This document shows positions 6,781-21,329 of a DNA stretch of 21,538 nucleotides, piece by piece. Within the stretch, counting starts at the first letter, position 1; each line of letters begins with the position of its first letter. The notes beneath the pieces are model-generated. The model saw nothing but the letters and a program-made list of their open reading frames with translations, had not been told where the DNA came from and ran no database searches. A program made the translations under genes and the position numbers. The stretch is from a virus: the IMG/VR virus record IMGVR_UViG_3300035698_017755, positions 1 to 21,538 of that record; one strand, 5' to 3'.

Positions 6781-7761
6781 TTAGGAAGCATAAGCAGCTC
6801 CACCACCCATTGACCCAAATATACCTCTCCAATCGTAATGACCTCCTGACCATGAAGCGAAGACATCAAAACTCATAGATCTATTTCTATGTTCAAAATT
6901 ATTTGGGACTAATTGCTCCATTTCCCAGAAAAATAGTTTGGCTCGATTAACATCAATCATGAACCAGTAATTATCATTATCACAACCGTAATCGGAGCTT
7001 AAATATAAATTCTCAATTACTGTAACCACACCGCCACCGTACACATTGATATTATTATCAGCACTATCAATTTTTAGTTCTGATCCAGATAATTCTTTAG
7101 CTTTTAAAAGAAGAGCTGGTCCCACCATAAGAACTATTTTAGGTGATAGTCCCATTGATATACCATCATCTGTTTTCTGTTGTACTAGTGCTTGTCTGGC
7201 AGTATCAAACTCGGTATAAGTAAGTGCTGCACCTGTCGCACTTGCATTAGATTGAGAGCTTTGTCCTGGTACTCTGGTAGGATGAACCGTACTACACATA
7301 GGCACTAAATCACCGTATCTGGTAATTTTAATCCCATTTGCACTTGTAGGCTGATCAGTATCAAAAGCGTGAATCCACGGTTGAGATAATAATAAATCTT
7401 TTGTTGCGTTACCTGATCGGACTAAATCACCGTATTCGTCAAGATCTGGTTGGATTTTACGTAATTGAAGAGTTTGGGCGGTAACGGTAATACCACCATC
7501 GAATATAGTAGGAATCGCTTCTGTCTGATACCCAGGGTATCTGTTCTTCTCATTCACTTCACCTCCTTGATGATTAGCTTGTAAAAATCCAGTTCCTGGA
7601 CGGTTAGTGAATATTTTTCTTGCTTCTTTATCGTTAAAGTTTTTGTAAACACCTAATCTCATTAACTCGGATTGGTATTGATCGTAGTTCTGTACGAACG
7701 AATCCGCAAAGTCTACTTCTACACCTTTGATATAATTGGCGTAAGTTGATAGATTTTCCAT
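6781..7761 (-). CDS. Major capsid protein (HK97-fold, inferred)
   Basis: The protein is 326 residues long, a common size for HK97-fold capsid proteins without a cleaved scaffold domain. It contains an N-terminal helical arm, an FDTARQALVQQ helix (185-195), and a SPKIVLMVGPALLLKAKEL segment (206-224) of the kind found in the A-domain of many capsid proteins. The end, SGGHYDWRGIFGSMGG, has the DWR-x-x-x-GS pattern common near capsid protein C termini. Position supports the call: terminase, portal, scaffold-like and decoration-like genes precede it in the usual order. The leader carries two copies of an 11-bp repeat, and TTAAC lies 11 nt before the ATG. The call is fairly firm, although the fold is inferred. 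Confidence 0.8.
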   Translation of the reverse strand: MENLSTYANYIKGVEVDFADSFVQNYDQYQSELMRLGVYKNFNDKEARKIFTNRPGTGFLQANHQGGEVNEKNRYPGYQTEAIPTIFDGGITVTAQTLQLRKIQPDLDEYGDLVRSGNATKDLLLSQPWIHAFDTDQPTSANGIKITRYGDLVPMCSTVHPTRVPGQSSQSNASATGAALTYTEFDTARQALVQQKTDDGISMGLSPKIVLMVGPALLLKAKELSGSELKIDSADNNINVYGGGVVTVIENLYLSSDYGCDNDNYWFMIDVNRAKLFFWEMEQLVPNNFEHRNRSMSFDVFASWSGGHYDWRGIFGSMGGGAAYAS

Positions 7762-7827: not shown

Positions 7828-8346
7828 TTAAATTGCTAGTTGACTTTCATTAATTGTAACAATCAAACGAGAGCTATTTTCTGGATCTACTCCCCATGAT
7901 AGGAATTGTCCTTCGGAGGCAGATACAGATGATTCGTCTAATTTATCTGATGAAGCAACAACATCAAACATATTACCTGCCTGATCTGAATTTCCAGTTG
8001 TACCCAATGTAGCATCCACATCAACTGAATATTTAGTTGATGTTGAAACATCAATTAACGCACACATTTTGTCAACTGTTTCGTTGTCTGAAGCAGCGGT
8101 ATAATCAAGATAAAAATCTCCACCATCCCCATCATTAAGAGGAGGGCAAGCACCGTTATATTTTTCAAATCCGATAATAATTCCGTAAACAGCGACTGTG
8201 GCCAATACGGCCTCAACTGTCTCGTCATCAACATTCATTAGTACAGCAAGTCCGACTTTGACATCTTCACTGTTTGTAATAATTTTTTTTTGTAAGATTT
8301 GGACTTCTTTTGATCCTAGACTACTTACGAAAAATCCTTCTGACAT
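7828..8346 (-). CDS. Probable capsid decoration / stabilisation protein
   Basis: This 172-residue acidic protein is mostly beta-strand and Ser/Thr/Asp-rich. It contains GLAVLMNVDDETVEAVLATVAVYGIIIGF, near residues 30-60, a pattern like small head decoration proteins that trimerise on HK97-type capsids. It lies directly upstream of the major capsid gene and downstream of the scaffold-like gene, which is the usual place for a decoration protein. TTAAC lies 10 nt before its ATG. No enzymatic motif is visible. The name is inferred from location and composition. Confidence 0.5.
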   Translation of the reverse strand: MSEGFFVSSLGSKEVQILQKKIITNSEDVKVGLAVLMNVDDETVEAVLATVAVYGIIIGFEKYNGACPPLNDGDGGDFYLDYTAASDNETVDKMCALIDVSTSTKYSVDVDATLGTTGNSDQAGNMFDVVASSDKLDESSVSASEGQFLSWGVDPENSSRLIVTINESQLAI

Positions 8347-8385: not shown

Positions 8386-9045
8386 CTAACTGAAATGATT
8401 GTTACGAATTTCAATGGCTTTTGTTGCTCGCTCCTTATCCCATCCTTTGGTGTTCATTATTTCCTGAACTTCTTTGCTTGCGCTGGATAAAGAACTACCT
8501 CTTGAGCTTCCACCCCCTAATTTTTGGATAAATTTTTCTTTTTCGTGGTCAACCTCATCTGAATCTCTGCGTACATGTGAGTACAATAGACTCATAGCAA
8601 CATTAACATCCTTAATTAATCCAACTTTGACTAGGGCTTTAGCCGATTTTTCGATATATTCTCCTCCTATTTTATCCCAGCCGTCTTCTCCGATACTTCT
8701 TTCTTTTTTGAAATTATCTATGGTGTTTTTAAAAGATAATTCTTTCTGGTTTTTGTGATAAATTCTTTCGTTGTATTTTTCAAGATCTTTTTTAGTTATT
8801 GGTGTATTATCATCAATTGCGTCAATTTCTTTATTAGCTAATTGTTGTTTTAAATCTTCTACTTCAATAGTTCTGTCTTTAAGTTTTCCGACAAGATCTT
8901 GAAATCTTTTTTCCCCTTTTTCTTCATTTTCTGGTGGCGAACCTTCAGGAGGAGTCTCAGGTGGTTTGGTTTCTTCAGGAGGCGAACCTTCAGGAGGAGT
9001 ACCTTCAGGAGGAGTACCTTCCTCTTGGATAATATTTTCAGCCAT
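8386..9045 (-). CDS. Probable capsid scaffolding protein
   Basis: The 219-residue protein begins with an acidic proline-rich region of repeated TPPEG / SPPEE units (about residues 8-38). A charged coiled-coil follows (FQDLVGKLKDRTIEVEDLKQQLANKE), then helical sequence and a short C-terminal basic helix (GWDKERATKAIEIRNNHF). A disordered acidic start, coiled-coil middle and basic end, together with a place two genes before the major capsid protein, are the usual traits of phage scaffolding proteins. Their basic C-terminal helix touches the capsid protein. It is the first gene after the terminator at 9123-9145, so it needs its own promoter or read-through. Confidence 0.65.
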   Translation of the reverse strand: MAENIIQEEGTPPEGTPPEGSPPEETKPPETPPEGSPPENEEKGEKRFQDLVGKLKDRTIEVEDLKQQLANKEIDAIDDNTPITKKDLEKYNERIYHKNQKELSFKNTIDNFKKERSIGEDGWDKIGGEYIEKSAKALVKVGLIKDVNVAMSLLYSHVRRDSDEVDHEKEKFIQKLGGGSSRGSSLSSASKEVQEIMNTKGWDKERATKAIEIRNNHFS

Positions 9046-9074
9046 AGTTTTTTAAAGTTATGAATAGATCACTA

Positions 9075-9102
9075 ATTTTATTGGCAATTAGGAAGCCTAC
9101 AA
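9075..9102 (-). promoter_or_regulatory. Weak candidate promoter before the scaffold gene
   Basis: On the minus strand TTGTAG (9102-9097) and TAAAAT (9080-9075) are separated by 16 bp. It lies just after the intrinsic terminator and before the scaffold ATG at 9045, where a new promoter would be useful. The -35 box matches only three of six consensus bases, and such boxes arise easily by chance in AT-rich DNA. Confidence 0.25.
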
Positions 9103-9122
9103 TCTTTTTTACTAAAAAGACG

Positions 9123-9145
9123 AAAAAACCTCTGTAATACAGAGG
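9123..9145 (-). terminator. Intrinsic terminator after the small anti-defence-like gene cluster
   Basis: On the minus strand CCTCTG, loop TATTA and CAGAGG are followed directly by TTTTTT. This is a standard rho-independent terminator shape. It separates the portal-to-9256 transcript from the scaffold-capsid genes. The stem is only 6 bp, so partial read-through into the capsid genes is likely. Confidence 0.75.
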
Positions 9146-9242
9146 CTTTTAAAGGCTTTCATTTATTTGAAGTCCCAAGAATAGGCAAGAAAAAACAAAC
9201 AGTGAAAGCCATTAGAAGCTTCTGTTTTTTCCTATTCTTGGG
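9123..9242 (-). ncRNA. Structured non-coding RNA candidate: long hairpin with loop-tail pseudoknot plus terminator
   Basis: This is the only gene-free stretch of about 200 bases in the structural region (9046-9255). Read on the minus strand, CCCAAGAATAGG (9242-9231) pairs perfectly with CCTATTCTTGGG (9185-9174). Inside it, an A6-CAG run can pair with CTG and a T6 run, giving an irregular extended stem. The loop holds GGCTTTCA (9210-9203), which is the exact complement of TGAAAGCC (9161-9154) just past the hairpin, so an H-type pseudoknot is possible. The stretch ends with an intrinsic terminator. No good promoter lies upstream, so it may be the processed 3' end of the preceding operon. A small element with 12-bp inverted ends is an alternative; no target duplication is visible. 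Confidence 0.45.
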
Positions 9243-9255
9243 GTGGTTTAAAAGA

Positions 9256-9645
9256 TCAATTACAGTCTAATCTTTGTGCTTTGCATAATTCAGTATAAAT
9301 TTCTCTATAAGCCTTATTTTTTTGATTTATTTTTTCATCACTTGTTTTTACAAATTGTTCTGTAAGGAGATTAATATTGTATAAAATAAACTTTTCTATA
9401 ATGATTATTCCTGAATTATTTCTGGCGTATAATTCTGTGACTGCCGTTAGTTCTTCATCAGTTACTTTGAGCGTTGATCGCTCTAACGCTGTCAATAACA
9501 GATGGGGTAAAGGCTGGTCATTAAAATATTTTAGTGCTCTTATTTCGGCATTTAATCGCTTAATTTCTTGATCTTTATTCCTTATAAGTTTGACATACTT
9601 ACTTGACTTAAACAATAAATTAAATATGGTTTCAATAAACTTCAT
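9256..9645 (-). CDS. Unknown 129-residue protein beside two anti-defence-like genes
   Basis: I recognise no family. Residues 1-15 are a hydrophobic and basic helix (MKFIETIFNLLFKSS), perhaps membrane-associating. Residues 18-42 form a charged helix (RNKDQEIKRLNAEIRALKYF). The rest looks helical, with ALERSTLKVTDEELTAVTELYARN in the middle and a KINQKNKAYREIYTELCKAQR end. It is the last gene before the structured RNA and terminator, 12 bases after the stop of the Acb2/Tad1-like gene and in one run with it and the Tad2-like gene. The neighbours suggest an accessory role against host immunity, but nothing in the protein itself shows this. TTAAC lies 11 nt before the ATG. Confidence 0.55.
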   Translation of the reverse strand: MKFIETIFNLLFKSSKYVKLIRNKDQEIKRLNAEIRALKYFNDQPLPHLLLTALERSTLKVTDEELTAVTELYARNNSGIIIIEKFILYNINLLTEQFVKTSDEKINQKNKAYREIYTELCKAQRLDCN

Positions 9646-9657
9646 AAAAAGTTTTGG

Positions 9658-9900
9658 TTAATTTTTATTCATAATTTCTTCGTCTCTCTTTTTATTTAAA
9701 TCTTCACCTCCTAAATTACCCATTTCTTTGCCTAGCCACATTTTGGCTTCTTGTAGCTTAGTAATAACTAAACTTCTCTCTCTTGATCCACCTTCAAATA
9801 ACTTAAGTGATTCAGTAGTTTCTTGAATGTTCTCTCTTAATATTCGGCAACCATCTAATGTTAAAACATTCTTAGTGTTAATTTGGTTTTCACTTGTCAT
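9658..9900 (-). CDS. Acb2/Tad1 hairpin-family-like small protein (cyclic nucleotide sponge candidate)
   Basis: The 80-residue protein has a central SRERSLVITKLQEAKMW motif (residues 39-55) after a predicted helix (GCRILRENIQETTESLK). From memory, this SRE-x-SL-x-x-T-x-L-x-EA-x-x-W signature is the hallmark of the small phage proteins grouped as the Acb2/Tad1 hairpin domain (formerly DUF7681). Proteins of that group bind immune signal nucleotides: Acb2 takes up cyclic oligonucleotides of CBASS, and Tad1 takes up glycocyclic ADP-ribose of Thoeris. The family usually ends in ANAGIARN or similar; here the end is WLGKEMGNLGG plus a charged tail. It lies 39 bases after the Tad2-like gene. The ligand cannot be predicted, and many family members are untested. 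Confidence 0.6.
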   Translation of the reverse strand: MTSENQINTKNVLTLDGCRILRENIQETTESLKLFEGGSRERSLVITKLQEAKMWLGKEMGNLGGEDLNKKRDEEIMNKN

Positions 9901-9921
9901 GGGTTGGTGATTATTAAATAA

Positions 9922-9947
9922 ATGGGTAAAAAAATAAAATTAAACTT
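9922..9947. repeat. 26-bp direct repeat, copy at the 3' end of the Tad2-like gene
   Basis: It matches 10201-10226 in 25 of 26 positions, including 21 identical bases in a row. It contains the last codon and stop of the Tad2-like gene (minus strand GTT TAA) and the A/T-rich spacer that follows. The two copies lie 279 bp apart and bracket the gene. Confidence 0.85.
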
Positions 9948-10194
9948 CCATTACAATCCATTCTTCAGAAAATAAGTCATGATTAGATGGCCAATAAGGC
10001 ATTCTTTTATATCCATCTTTTTCGTCTTTACAAGGGATATTAAAATAAATATAAGAGACGTTCATTTTACTATGTTCGTCTGGGGTTTGCATCTCTAGAT
10101 ACATTCCTGACTGATTGTTCCAACTGGCATTTGAGACTTTTTCACCATTCTTAAGCTTGTTTAAAGCTGTTGAAAAATCAAAGGTAACTGGCAT
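9940..10194 (-). CDS. Tad2-like DUF2829 protein (anti-Thoeris sponge candidate)
   Basis: The protein has 84 residues, the usual size for DUF2829. It begins FDFSTALNKLKNGEKVSNASWN (residues 5-26), the typical F-x-x-AL-x-x-LK-x-G-x-x-V-x-x-x-x-W start. It then has GMYLEMQTPDE (30-40), a YIYFN strand (48-52), and ends with PYWPSNHDLFSEEWIVMEV. The last part is the W-x-PS-x-x-DL-x-x-x-x-W signature (W68, D73, W79). Tad2 proteins are DUF2829 tetramers that bind glycocyclic ADP-ribose and so block Thoeris; some homologues also bind cyclic dinucleotides. It follows the portal gene and is bracketed by 26-bp direct repeats, which suggests it was gained as a unit. The DUF2829 call is firm; the ligand is inferred. 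Confidence 0.75.
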   Translation of the reverse strand: MPVTFDFSTALNKLKNGEKVSNASWNNQSGMYLEMQTPDEHSKMNVSYIYFNIPCKDEKDGYKRMPYWPSNHDLFSEEWIVMEV

Positions 10195-10200
10195 AAATAT

Positions 10201-10226
10201 ATGGTTAAAAAAATAAAATTAAACTT
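10201..10226. repeat. 26-bp direct repeat, copy between portal and the Tad2-like gene
   Basis: This is the partner of 9922-9947, with one mismatch. It holds the portal stop codon (GTT TAA) and the spacer with the TTAACC start motif of the Tad2-like gene. In the other copy the motif reads TTTACCC, so the single difference falls within the start motif. Confidence 0.85.
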
Positions 10227-12396
10227 GAGCCTGTCCTCCTCCTGATGCGTTATTAGCTCCCGGCAGACTTCCTGCTGCTACAGGCGGTTTGGTAGGTTGA
10301 GCTTGTGGCTGTGGCGCTGGTGCATCTTTTTCTGGTTCAAATTGGCTTTGGCCTACCAATGAAGCGTGAAGCTCAAATTGTTTCTCAAAAAGATCTTTAA
10401 TTTTCCTTTGTAGTTTTTTATATTCCTTAGTTTGTTTGTAGGCGAGTATATACTCAAAATGCTTTAAATGATTAACATTTTTAGGTAAGACTGGCGTTTT
10501 TCCTGAAAGTAAAGTTAATCTCTCATATTCAATATTACTTACATATTTAGATTGCTCATCTTTTAATTCTTTTTTGAAAAAATCTTCCGGGTTTTTTCCG
10601 TATGCTTTTATAAGATTTTCATATAATTTATCTAAATCTGTTCTTTCTGTAAATAAGGGTATAGCAACTAATTGTGCTAAAAGGCTTAGATACTCTTCTC
10701 GGTCAAGTGCCTCTAGTTCTCTGGTCATACTTCCAGCAAATACTTGAACCTCTAATTGTGTTCTTATTATTTCAGGTCTTATTTCTAATAAAGAAAATAC
10801 GCCTTGTTTTTCTTGGAGTTCTACAAAATTTATTTCTTTTCCATTCTCTGTTTTTGTCGTAGTGTTGATTTTTAAATTATCTAAGGGGATCTTTGGATAA
10901 CTTATATTTTCTTCAATTGTTCCATCTGGAAGAATTATGTTTCTTGCAATTCTACGTGGAAAAAATTCCATTAAATTACTTGTCACTTGTTGATACATCA
11001 CCCTTAATCCGGTTGATTCGTTAAATTGTCGAGTAAAAGATAACAGTTTATTCGAAATTTCTCTCTTTAGTTTAGTCTGGTAAACCCTCTCGTTTGGGTT
11101 AACCTCTTGAATATTTATATCTATTCCTGCATATCTGGTAATCTCTGTATCAAATTTATTGTCCATTCGTTCAAAATCTTGGCCTAAAGTAGGCGTAGGT
11201 GCAAACATTACATTCTGTCTGATATCTATTCCTGCGTCTATCTCATTTTCCGCACCCCACTTAATCTTTTTCATATCAATTCCTTGATAGAAAGTTGTAG
11301 GGGTAAGACTTCTTTTTGTTACGTCAAACGCTAATCCTGCAAGAGTATCTTTTAGATCTAAGACTCCACGTAGTAATGTTGTATCGCTTACTGATCTTCC
11401 AGTATGTGGAATCGGAAACGCTTTTAATTCTATTAATGGAAGCATTTTATGGGAGAATGGTATTCCGCCATCTTTTCTTATTAAAACACCATTAGACACA
11501 ATCCAATGCTCATCATCTACCCAGTTGTAATATCTCTTAATGTAGACATTATCGTTTTTTGTTCCAATGTACGTATTTTTATTTGTGTCTTCATGATAAA
11601 CGTTGTAATCCCAAGTATCCCTTCCTCCTGGCACAACACTTTCCATATTCTTGTACCCTTTAAACCTTTCTCTGAAAGTTTCTAAAGATAGAACTTCATT
11701 AATAATAATGTCTCTGGCTGAATCAATAGTCGATTCTGTGTGTAGATCATTAGCCATTTCGTCTACAAGTATGTTTTTTGGATGATGAGATATTAGTGTA
11801 GCACCATCTTTTTTAATTATTTCTTTTTCATCATATTCATTGTCGCCCTGTAGTTCTTCATTAACATCTCTTGCGTCCGCTGCTTCCCCTTTCCCTTCTT
11901 TGTATTTTTTAGGTACTTTAATCTTTTGTAAAACGCAACTATACGCTGTTTCTATATATCCCTTTTGCATTCCAAACATATCAATAAAGGAATACGTGAG
12001 CTGAGTTAAATGCCCCATATTCCTTTGATTATATTCGGAAACTATTTTAAAAATCTCAAGTCTTCTTTTTGATATATCTGATACTTCCCCATTATTCTCA
12101 ACCGCATTTTTGAAAACTAAATCAGGTAATTTTTGCAAAGTTTCGGACAATTTTTGTCTTAATATTACAAAAGCTAAGGGACTCCTTATATGGGTTTTCC
12201 AGTTTTTGGCTGGTCTGTCTTCGGGGGAAACCATCATGTTCCGCCAAAGATCATTTTCGTCTGCCTCCATACTCCTTATTTCTTCTTCTCTAGCTGCTGA
12301 CATTAATTCAGAGCGTCTTTTTACGTAAGAAATACGGTCGGTTTCTTCTTTTGTTGGTTTATACGCTTCAAATTTTGGACTTTCGTATAAAATCAT
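10219..12396 (-). CDS. Portal protein
   Basis: This 725-residue protein lies after the large terminase and before the scaffold and capsid genes. It has the portal layout: an N-terminal helical clip/wing region with RNMMVSPEDRPAKNWKTHIRSPLA (about 51-74), mixed alpha-beta wing domains, and a stem region (LPLIELKAFPIPHTGRSVSDTTLLRGVLDLKDTLAG). It ends in a long helical C terminus with coiled-coil (YKKLQRKIKDLFEKQF) and a disordered Pro/Gln/Ala-rich tail. Large portals of about 700 residues are typical of P22-like podoviruses, and the order portal, scaffold, coat agrees, but sequence likeness to P22 is not evident. A 12-subunit ring at the DNA entry vertex is expected. No TTAAC motif precedes the ATG. 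Confidence 0.7.
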   Translation of the reverse strand: MILYESPKFEAYKPTKEETDRISYVKRRSELMSAAREEEIRSMEADENDLWRNMMVSPEDRPAKNWKTHIRSPLAFVILRQKLSETLQKLPDLVFKNAVENNGEVSDISKRRLEIFKIVSEYNQRNMGHLTQLTYSFIDMFGMQKGYIETAYSCVLQKIKVPKKYKEGKGEAADARDVNEELQGDNEYDEKEIIKKDGATLISHHPKNILVDEMANDLHTESTIDSARDIIINEVLSLETFRERFKGYKNMESVVPGGRDTWDYNVYHEDTNKNTYIGTKNDNVYIKRYYNWVDDEHWIVSNGVLIRKDGGIPFSHKMLPLIELKAFPIPHTGRSVSDTTLLRGVLDLKDTLAGLAFDVTKRSLTPTTFYQGIDMKKIKWGAENEIDAGIDIRQNVMFAPTPTLGQDFERMDNKFDTEITRYAGIDINIQEVNPNERVYQTKLKREISNKLLSFTRQFNESTGLRVMYQQVTSNLMEFFPRRIARNIILPDGTIEENISYPKIPLDNLKINTTTKTENGKEINFVELQEKQGVFSLLEIRPEIIRTQLEVQVFAGSMTRELEALDREEYLSLLAQLVAIPLFTERTDLDKLYENLIKAYGKNPEDFFKKELKDEQSKYVSNIEYERLTLLSGKTPVLPKNVNHLKHFEYILAYKQTKEYKKLQRKIKDLFEKQFELHASLVGQSQFEPEKDAPAPQPQAQPTKPPVAAGSLPGANNASGGGQAQV

Positions 12397-12422: not shown

Positions 12423-13016
12423 TTATTCATTTTTATCTTCCTGCTTTTCTTCGTTTTCTTTCAATTTTGTTTTGCTTGGTTCGGGTAATTTTTTTTTTGC
12501 GTCTTCTTCTACATCTTTAGCTTCTTTTATCGCTAAATCAATTTCTTCAATTTCTTCTTTAACGTCTCTGGTAAGAATAAGAATAGTCTCTCCTCTTGCG
12601 TTTTTTTCTTCTTTTTTATCTTTTTCAATGGCTTTTTCAATCCCTTTTTCAAAAGAAGTAGAAAGATAGCTCAAAGCTTCTCGTTTAAAAATTAAGGTTA
12701 CTTTAACATCATAGACCTTTTTAATTTCTGCATTAGCAGAATCTTGAATAATTTTTCTTTTACCTTCTAATTCGTTTCTTTGGACAGAAGTAATTTCTTT
12801 AAAATTTAGATTCTTAGTTAGCTCAAGATCTTGATTTTTGACTTTTTTAGTTATAGCTTCTTCCTCTTTTTTTACCTCATCCAACGTAGAATTAAGAACT
12901 CTATATAAGTCATTATCTTTTGTGATCTCTGACTTATTGGCTGGTTTGTAGTATGGTAAAAAGATATTACCTAAAATAGACGTTTGTTTTTTTGTTAAAA
13001 CAATTGATTTTTGCAT
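12423..13016 (-). CDS. Coiled-coil protein between terminase and portal, unknown function
   Basis: The protein is 197 residues, very rich in Lys and Glu, and predicted mostly helical. It has an N-terminal part with some aromatic residues (ILGNIFLPYYKPANKSE) and a long charged C-terminal tail from about residue 150 (IEEIDLAIKEAKDVEEDAKKKLPEPSKTK). Nothing points to an enzyme. The place between the large terminase and portal genes is often held by small accessory packaging or head proteins. It has its own strong-looking promoter (TTGACA, 17 bp, TATTTT) just upstream. The ATG at 13016 has no TTAAC motif. Confidence 0.55.
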   Translation of the reverse strand: MQKSIVLTKKQTSILGNIFLPYYKPANKSEITKDNDLYRVLNSTLDEVKKEEEAITKKVKNQDLELTKNLNFKEITSVQRNELEGKRKIIQDSANAEIKKVYDVKVTLIFKREALSYLSTSFEKGIEKAIEKDKKEEKNARGETILILTRDVKEEIEEIDLAIKEAKDVEEDAKKKLPEPSKTKLKENEEKQEDKNE

Positions 13017-13076: not shown

Positions 13077-14567
13077 TTAATCTTCACGTCGCTCATTCCT
13101 TTCTTTCTTTTTAAGTTCGTGTGCTTCCCTTCTGGCTGACATTTTCTTAGGCTTAGGCTCTGTTTTAGCATGTTTTAGCATAAACAATATATACATTAAA
13201 GCATCCATTAGATGATCTTGTTTTTTGACTATATTCTCATTGTCGTCTGTATCGTCTTTTTCTTCTTTATATCTGTAATGCTCGAACTCGAAAATTGTAT
13301 TAATACAAGTCGATGCAATAAACATTTTCTTATTTTTGAGTTTTGATTTAACAATTGATCGGGCTGTTTCTTTGAATCCTTTGAGTTTTTGGACTGGTGA
13401 TAGTCTTAATTTTCTTCTATTAAATTCTAGGATAGCTTGTGTGGCTGCACTATCCATTATTCTCCGCCTGAATATTTTTTTACCCATTTTTTCTTTTATC
13501 TTCTCAGCGTGGGTATCAAAATCTTGTTCCGCTTCGTAGTATTCATCAAAAATATAAATATTCTCATCATAATCTATTCCTATATATACGACGGCTGTTT
13601 CATGTCTTGTTCCAAAATCCAATCCCATAAAGAAAGTAAAATCATTGTCAGGATCAAAGTAATCAATAACGTGCTTTTCTCGGTCGAATTCGTCAAAGAC
13701 TAGTCCACCTACCGCACAAAATTCACCTTTAACACGCATTCGGTTATCTTTCTCTGAACAGGTCCGAATAAATATATCTATTTCTTTAGGATCTAGCCAT
13801 GGATTATCGGCTATATTTGATACAATACTCCACGTTAATCCCGGAACATTATTTTTATGAATCTCTTTATAAGCCCACGTAAACCCCTTAAGTGGGGTCA
13901 TGGTTATATATAAAATACCTCCTGAATCAACAGTTCTGGCCTTACACTCATTGTATATATCTTGTGGCGGTTCTTCATCAAGCCAAATCCAGTCTTTTGA
14001 TGTTCCTTGAAATTTCCCCCTTCCTGCTTCGCAATTTTTGAACCTTATTTTTGAACCATTTTTAAGCAAAATAAGGGTTGCAAGCTTGATGCAATCCTTA
14101 AAATCTGCATAAGTTATTTTAGATTTATGGTCGCCTAAAATATATTTAATTACTGATTTAGGAAGCCAATCGACTATAGCGGGCTGTGTAATTTCTAATT
14201 GTGTATTGTTATCTAAGGATACTACTAAACCGTTCGTTTTTTTTGTGAATTTTCTACCCTCCCACCATTCGGGATATTTCAAAGTAGCATGAAAAATACT
14301 CTCGGCTGCTCCTGATACGGTCTTTCCTGTACGATTTCCTCCCAAAAATAAACGTGTTTTAGCAATTGCCTTATGAAAGGCAACTTGTTTATGATGAATT
14401 TTGCTAATATTTTCAGGATTATTATATTTCAAAATCTTCCATTCATTATCCTTGTTTTTTTTCATTAACAACATTTCTGCTATTCTTCTTTTTTCTTTAT
14501 GAGATAGCGATTTTAGCCACGATTTAAATTTTTTAGGATTTTCTTTAAAGGTTTTAAATATTTTCAT
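13077..14567 (-). CDS. terL: Terminase large subunit
   Basis: This 496-residue ATP-driven DNA-packaging motor has both domains. The ATPase has Walker A GGNRTGKT (76-83), Walker B WIWLDEE (193-199, with D197 and E198), and a coupling motif ITMTPLKG (221-228). The RNase H-like nuclease has FFMGLDFGT (acid D317), RIMDSAAT (D372) and DHLMDALMY (D451/D455), the three metal-binding positions expected. Full length and all motifs indicate an active enzyme. No small terminase was recognised, although the 69-residue coiled-coil gene at 15273 could be one. A promoter-like site with a palindrome lies directly upstream. The ATG at 14567 has no TTAAC motif, unlike most genes here. Confidence 0.92.
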   Translation of the reverse strand: MKIFKTFKENPKKFKSWLKSLSHKEKRRIAEMLLMKKNKDNEWKILKYNNPENISKIHHKQVAFHKAIAKTRLFLGGNRTGKTVSGAAESIFHATLKYPEWWEGRKFTKKTNGLVVSLDNNTQLEITQPAIVDWLPKSVIKYILGDHKSKITYADFKDCIKLATLILLKNGSKIRFKNCEAGRGKFQGTSKDWIWLDEEPPQDIYNECKARTVDSGGILYITMTPLKGFTWAYKEIHKNNVPGLTWSIVSNIADNPWLDPKEIDIFIRTCSEKDNRMRVKGEFCAVGGLVFDEFDREKHVIDYFDPDNDFTFFMGLDFGTRHETAVVYIGIDYDENIYIFDEYYEAEQDFDTHAEKIKEKMGKKIFRRRIMDSAATQAILEFNRRKLRLSPVQKLKGFKETARSIVKSKLKNKKMFIASTCINTIFEFEHYRYKEEKDDTDDNENIVKKQDHLMDALMYILFMLKHAKTEPKPKKMSARREAHELKKKERNERRED

Positions 14568-20750: not shown

Positions 20751-20790
20751 ATTAATTTTTGTTAATAAATATTACTTTTCTAGTTCTTTT
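20751..20790. repeat. Repeated spacer plus gene end, copy 1
   Basis: This stretch and 21330-21369 are nearly identical for about 36 bases. They include the TTAAC leader of the following gene and the last codons of the preceding repeat protein gene (ELEK). This marks a tandem duplication of gene plus spacer. Confidence 0.7.
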
Positions 20791-21329
20791 TTCCTTTCTT
20801 CTAAAGCTTTTTTATTCGCCCCAGGGATAAAACGAGCAAATCTAAAACACGCATCCCCATCCCCAATCTCAAGAACTCTTTTTTGAAGTTTTTGAATATC
20901 TGCTCCTTTAACATAATTAGCAAACACATAGCAATCCCACCCATCCCCAATTTCAAGAACTCTTTTTTGAAGTTTTTGAATATCTGCTCCTTTAACATCT
21001 TGAGCGAACATAAAACAATCATCCCCATCCCCAATCTCAATAACTCTTTCTTGTAGTTTTTTTATATCTGCACCTGGAATATTTTCAGCAAAACTTAAAC
21101 AATCCCCCCCAGTACCAATCTCCACTACTCTTTTTTGTAATTTTTTGATATTTGCTCCTTTTATATTTTGAGCAAACTCAAAACAATTCCACCCAGTCCC
21201 AATCTCAAGCACCCTTTTTTGGAGTTTTTTGATATCCGCTCCTTGGATATCTCTAGCCAATACATAACAATCCCAACCATCCCCAATCTCAAGAACTATT
21301 TTTTGTTCTTTTTTTTGTTCTTCATCCAT
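20772..21329 (-). CDS. Protein of six 28-residue repeats (complete)
   Basis: The 185-residue protein consists of a short acidic-basic start (MDEEQKKEQKI) and six repeats of 28 residues, KRVLEIGDGWDCYVFA then a helix ending GADIQKLQ. Fixed positions are EIG-x-G-x-x-C and FA, GA and L near the end. The period of exactly 84 bp with high DNA identity suggests recent growth of the array. Similar repeats with GD-x-x-x-FA-x-x-x-x-GAD-x-x-x-L occur in phage and bacterial proteins as I recall; they would form a helical solenoid that binds partners. Each repeat keeps one Cys at the same place, so a row of cysteines would line one face. Function is unknown. Confidence 0.65.
   Translation of the reverse strand: MDEEQKKEQKIVLEIGDGWDCYVLARDIQGADIKKLQKRVLEIGTGWNCFEFAQNIKGANIKKLQKRVVEIGTGGDCLSFAENIPGADIKKLQERVIEIGDGDDCFMFAQDVKGADIQKLQKRVLEIGDGWDCYVFANYVKGADIQKLQKRVLEIGDGDACFRFARFIPGANKKALEERKKELEK

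Follow-up and report, generated by a model that had tools for sequence, protein, structure and literature searches.

Adjacent Tad2-like and Acb2/Tad1-hairpin-like genes in the head block of a viral genome: a putative two-sponge cassette

Described nucleotide sponges and the gene order of the locus

The described proteins closest to the present pair belong to three groups. In Tad2 (SPO1 Gp34.65, SptTad2, ModTad2; PF11195, formerly DUF2829, a family that includes AcrIIA7), the gcADPR pocket is formed by the β1–β2 and β3–β4 loops, strand β4, the β4–α3 loop and helix α3, as reviewed in PMC12043709. The ligands vary within this family, MoTad2 binding His-ADPR and SPO1 Tad2 binding gcADPR (as stated in PMC13299392). 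In the case of Acb2 (T4 Vs.4 and relatives; PF24729), the aromatic residues Y8 and F82 of the T4 protein are required for the binding of cyclic dinucleotides or stack on them (PMC12657218), and the T68M substitution weakens binding (PMC12657230). Tad1 carries an N-terminal β domain that contributes to its gcADPR site, and cyclic trinucleotides bind at the trimer interfaces of Acb2 as well as Tad1 (PMC12043709). At the level of gene organization, the closest likeness is with acr/aca loci, the anti-defence clusters of mobile elements, in which inhibitors of different defences adjoin one another (PMC7648647).

The locus studied here lies in an IMG/VR virus record of 21,538 bases, which is referred to as the window; its recognizable genes, and the features of the head block given below, are on the minus strand. 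The initial annotation had singled out a run of three adjacent small genes, and its coordinates proved exact: the run consists of three complete ORFs of 84, 80 and 129 aa, separated by 39 and 12 bp. In transcription order, the head block begins with the large terminase gene (13077–14567; PF03237), followed by an ORF at 12423–13016, the portal protein gene (10219–12396; PHROG 1216, 2.6e-8), which is the upstream neighbour of the pair, the Tad2-like gene (9940–10194) and the Acb2/Tad1-hairpin-like gene (9658–9900). It continues with an orphan ORF (9256–9645) as the final gene of the run, and then with two hairpins, a scaffold-like ORF of 219 aa (8386–9045), an ORF at 7828–8346 and the gene for the major capsid protein (6781–7761; PF25209, 27.6 bits for a cut-off of 27). 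The scaffold-like ORF, the downstream neighbour of the run, is named from its position and composition, and has no family match in Pfam or PHROGs. The moron-like slot that had been proposed for the pair, inside the head block between portal and scaffold, is borne out. As in acr/aca loci, presumptive inhibitors adjoin one another; in contrast to them, the window displays no visible aca-type regulator, and both of its genes belong to nucleotide-sponge families and sit in a head block. Searches of the viral contig collection for relatives of the whole phage returned none when the portal or the Tad2-like protein served as single query, and only distant ones with the terminase.

The explanation that we favour, and consider probable, is that the two genes constitute a small counter-defence cassette of two sponges, carried as accessory genes in the portal–scaffold interval, whose ligands we leave unassigned.

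Family membership of the two proteins

Membership of the 9940–10194 product in the Tad2 family is secure on profile evidence. The protein matches PF11195 with an E value of 2.9e-12 and 47.4 bits, well past the curated cut-off of 25, and it reaches 81.6 bits with a Tad2 profile from which it had been left out, as compared with 13.5 for the best of 5000 shuffles. A profile made from seven of its relatives matches solved Tad2 chains in the PDB with E values from 5e-17 to 4e-14. The window protein also resembles Tad2 proteins in length and has in common with them F7, A10, G17, W25-N26, the P38-D39-x-HSKM segment, S70, D73 and W79. The DUF2829/Tad2 label given to this gene at the outset can thus be retained.

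The same domain is, however, present in AcrIIA7 (PMC6739104), so that the protein might alternatively be an anti-CRISPR protein of this type, with a neighbour unrelated to signalling. Indeed, a PDB chain named AcrIIA7 (9kzr) is also among the matches to the seven-relative profile. Yet 9kzr aligns to the Tad2 profile by residues identical to those of 8kbi, an entry entitled 'Inhibitor of Type II CRISPR-Cas system' that we take to be a Tad2 structure, and the repeated pairing with Acb2-hairpin genes described below suits nucleotide signalling better than Cas9 inhibition. We therefore regard an AcrIIA7-type role as improbable and continue to treat the protein as a putative sponge.

The comparison with 89 relatives from viral contigs, phages and bacterial genomes, which is our own conservation test and no published criterion of membership, revealed that the window protein departs from the family at eight near-invariant positions: R22N, G24S, G27N, W67Y, Q71N, T72H, L75F and D78E (residue of the relatives first). 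It also has one extra residue at position 29. Of the two near-invariant motifs, R-x-GWNGK and W-x2-SQTD-x-L-x2-DW, it retains just the W25, N26, S70, D73 and W79 already mentioned. Part of the sample was gathered by a pattern over residues 64–72, so that invariance within this stretch is inflated, while that of R22, G24, G27 and D78 is unaffected. When the loops are assigned by sequence only, with the pocket residues taken from published work and from conservation, the changed stretches would map mainly to the β1–β2 loop and to helix α3 with the residues leading into it, both of which are expected to line the pocket. The function of this pocket could accordingly be changed or lost.

For the 9658–9900 product, the placement in the Acb2/Tad1 hairpin family put forward in the initial annotation has to be argued differently, since the Pfam match is sub-threshold (PF24729, E 6.7e-5, 23.4 bits for a curated cut-off of 27) and confined to residues 37–57. 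Its membership is based on three other lines of evidence, namely an alignment of the family, a comparison with shuffled sequences and a predicted structure. All 11 members of the alignment match PF24729 at E ≤ 1, the best of them at 1.6e-8. When scored with a profile made from 20 relatives only, the window protein reaches 49.9 bits, as against 11.3 for the best of 5000 shuffles. Across the 21 sequences, whose members other than the window protein come from viral contigs, R40-E41, the ITKLQE segment at 46–51 (I46-T47-K48-L49-Q50-E51) and W55 are invariant. AlphaFold (AF2, 21 sequences) predicts a helical hairpin made of helices 3–33 and 40–62, with a core pLDDT of 92–97; the two-helix hairpin thus modelled bears the conserved RE...TKL.EA..W helix. 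Foldseek searches of the PDB with the model gave generic helical matches only, none below E 0.26 and nothing significant or specific. This is expected of a plain hairpin, for which Foldseek is uninformative.

In searches of the PDB with the family profile, the best match is Tad1 (8kbb, E 5.7e-9), followed by further Tad1 chains, and a solved Acb2 homolog (homolog 43, 9ptq) is matched with an E value of 0.0036 over most of its length. The helix of the window protein is nearer to that of Tad1 than to that of T4 Acb2, the C-terminal motif CREN..AITKLQE..MWLG being common to it and Tad1 (8kbb and others). Contrary to Tad1, however, it has no N-terminal β domain, the AF2 model being devoid of strands and the protein just 80 aa long. 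With Acb2 it shares a length of about 80 aa, an all-helical hairpin and a TKLxEAxMW helix that aligns with KTKLKEASMW of the T4 protein, T47 falling on T68. It differs from Acb2 in its N-terminus, in its sub-threshold Pfam score and in the lack of counterparts of Y8 and F82: in the alignment, residues 1–30 contain no aromatics and the F82 position (W+6) is occupied by G61. Each of the two window proteins is a new and divergent member of a known family. Elsewhere in our collection, Acb2-motif ORFs of 102–120 aa (L006, L009, L147 and L149) have a longer N-terminal part and mostly an R-x-VEG-type tail; these look Tad1-like.

Recurrence of the pair and its genomic slot

The association of the two genes was surveyed by scanning 115 Tad2-anchored loci, with flanks of up to 5 kb per side, with three local Acb2 profiles. 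An Acb2-like gene was present in seven of them, and in all seven the gap to tad2 was at most 248 bp. Three of these are bacterial-genome loci, from Mycolicibacterium (L150), Lysinibacillus (L155) and Paenibacillus (L158), in which the Acb2 gene, scoring 75.7, 92.2 and 88.8 bits against Pfam, respectively, immediately follows tad2, as it does in the window; the others are L054, L056, L104 and L111. The Acb2 genes of the three bacterial loci and of L054 and L056 are well above the Pfam cut-off, and that of L104 is below it. Three additional pairs (L194, L240 and L243) came to light when Acb2 was the starting point, and Pfam confirms their Tad2. In L143, a contig that we read as crAss-like from its gene content, an Acb2-like gene belonging to the same subfamily as that of the window is followed by a degraded-looking Tad2-like ORF (23.6 bits, cut-off 25), the two being located after the capsid region. 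The pair is also found in a cultured phage, as genes 4 and 5 of Mycobacterium phage MalagasyRose. In total, about a dozen further records contain it, from unrelated phages and with either gene first. Since L111, L194, L240 and L243 look mutually related, independent pairing events are fewer than the records, perhaps six to eight.

The pair is nonetheless rare, and one may ask whether two common phage accessory genes have simply met by chance. Most isolates carry one gene or the other, 604 phage records matching one or both parts of the paired query and three covering at least 80% of it, and 108 of the 115 Tad2 loci have no nearby Acb2-like gene. Chance encounter would not, however, readily account for the finding that every one of the seven Acb2-like genes present in Tad2 flanks is within 250 bp, nor for the occurrence of both gene orders in unrelated phages. 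We consider it very improbable that the pairing of Tad2 with Acb2 is a coincidence. The literature that we searched, which includes few of the subscription papers, yielded no description of this pairing, and this is no proof of its being unreported. A different arrangement was observed in L149, a 157,880-base contig (G031), in which two Tad2 genes are adjacent (150902–151204 and 151239–151442) and a gene of Acb2/Tad1 type is 7.6 kb off.

The recurrent pairs are often located at the edge of packaging or head genes. In L155, L158, L150 and MalagasyRose, the pair is just 5′ of genes annotated as, or positioned like, terminase subunits. In four loci whose capsid gene is distantly related to that of the window (L064, L066, L058 and L051), tad2 is found alone between portal and scaffold, beside a GroES-like ORF, and Tad2 in this slot keeps the usual pocket motif. 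The small GroES-like ORF, recognized as such by eye, was seen in the portal–scaffold interval of these four loci and of L018. Because kin carry tad2 or a GroES-like ORF there, accessory genes seem to be exchanged at this interval in the lineage of the window phage.

The location within the head block, together with the eight changed positions of the Tad2-like protein and the missing dinucleotide-binding aromatics of its neighbour, could also be taken to mean that the two proteins are descendants of sponge families that drifted or were re-used as accessory proteins of the virion or of its assembly. Several observations speak against such a re-use, which we think unlikely. Both ORFs are intact and the genome's own start motif precedes tad2; the same slot in kin is occupied by a GroES-like gene or by a Tad2 whose pocket motif is the usual one; and the helix motif of the Acb2-like protein is fully conserved. 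A cassette of two sponges thus remains our preferred explanation for the pair.

Possible mode of action and surroundings of the pair

If the two proteins operate as their families do, the Tad2-like protein would form a tetramer of Tad2 type, and its neighbour a hexamer of helical hairpins of Acb2 type. Each would capture immune nucleotide signals and leave them uncleaved, and the effectors that act in Thoeris, CBASS or a related signalling system would thereby remain off. The suggestion of the initial annotation that the pair neutralizes Thoeris and CBASS is a reasonable one to this extent, and we infer no more than that the pair may do so. The classical ligands cannot be taken for granted, because near-invariant positions are changed in the Tad2-like protein and the dinucleotide-binding aromatics are wanting in the Acb2-like one. 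Since the latter keeps the helix common to Acb2 and Tad1 while missing both the Y8/F82 aromatics and the Tad1 β domain, our best guess for its ligand would be cyclic trinucleotides, a weak guess that argues from absence. The Tad2-like protein may possibly bind an ADPR-type signal or a cyclic dinucleotide with altered specificity. A more far-reaching view, which we think unlikely, would be that Tad2 and the Acb2 hairpin constitute a recurrent, functionally paired two-sponge module, here with both proteins acting on ligands outside those described (the Tad2 pocket having been rebuilt and the minimal hairpin corresponding to the common core of Acb2 and Tad1), which would point to an undescribed nucleotide signal of the host.

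The recurrent pairing and the altered pockets are the parts that deserve follow-up. Were the pairing functional, certain phages would have to block two signal classes simultaneously. The pairs, including that of MalagasyRose, a cultured phage of M. smegmatis, are ready test material. Together, the diverged Tad2 and the minimal hairpin protein would indicate to what extent pocket sequences may diverge and which part of the Acb2/Tad1 core suffices for signal binding.

The third gene of the run (9256–9645, 129 aa) had also been put forward as a candidate anti-defence protein, a proposal that found no support. Its product has no match in Pfam, PHROGs, NCBIfam or PADLOC, apart from sub-threshold, chance-level hits in Pfam and PHROGs, and no homologue was detected by tblastn in phages, nor in viral contigs, genome contigs or the records of kin; it does not recur beside sponge genes. 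A single-sequence AlphaFold model, mostly helical at very low confidence (pLDDT 42), is unusable. The ORF is probably a real gene, since its GC3 is in keeping with the genome at large and the TTAAC start-site motif characteristic of this genome lies at −16. Nothing marks it as anti-defence, and we take it as an ORF that shares the run and stands outside the proposed mechanism.

The TTAAC motif is present 13–17 bases upstream of the start in 13 of the 28 minus-strand genes, as compared with 4.6% of random 30-base windows, a frequency reached by none of 2000 shuffles; it is at −14 of the Tad2-like gene. Shine–Dalgarno motifs are nearly absent (one of 28 minus-strand starts). It may be that the host uses TTAAC as an atypical signal for the start of translation or transcription. 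At its other end, the run terminates in terminator-like hairpins. The region between the orphan and scaffold-like genes (9046–9260) contains two strong hairpins and has a fold z score of −5.6, equalled by none of 200 shuffles. They are a long imperfect hairpin with 18-nt arms and a 33-nt spacer, 3′ of the orphan ORF (9174–9242), and a stem-loop followed by a T tract, 3′ of the run (9124–9150). The latter is one of three terminator-like sites found in 5.2 kb, for 2.9 expected. Rfam and tRNA searches of the window, hairpins included, were empty.

Two other ORFs of the window may be mentioned. The C-terminal half of the ORF at 1330–2472 resembles a family 2 glycosyltransferase (PF00535, 21.9 bits, cut-off 23.3). 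The ORF at 20772–21329, whose Pfam matches are sub-threshold only, contains about six in-frame copies of a unit of about 28 residues (EIGDGWDCY..A..I.GADI.KLQKRV).
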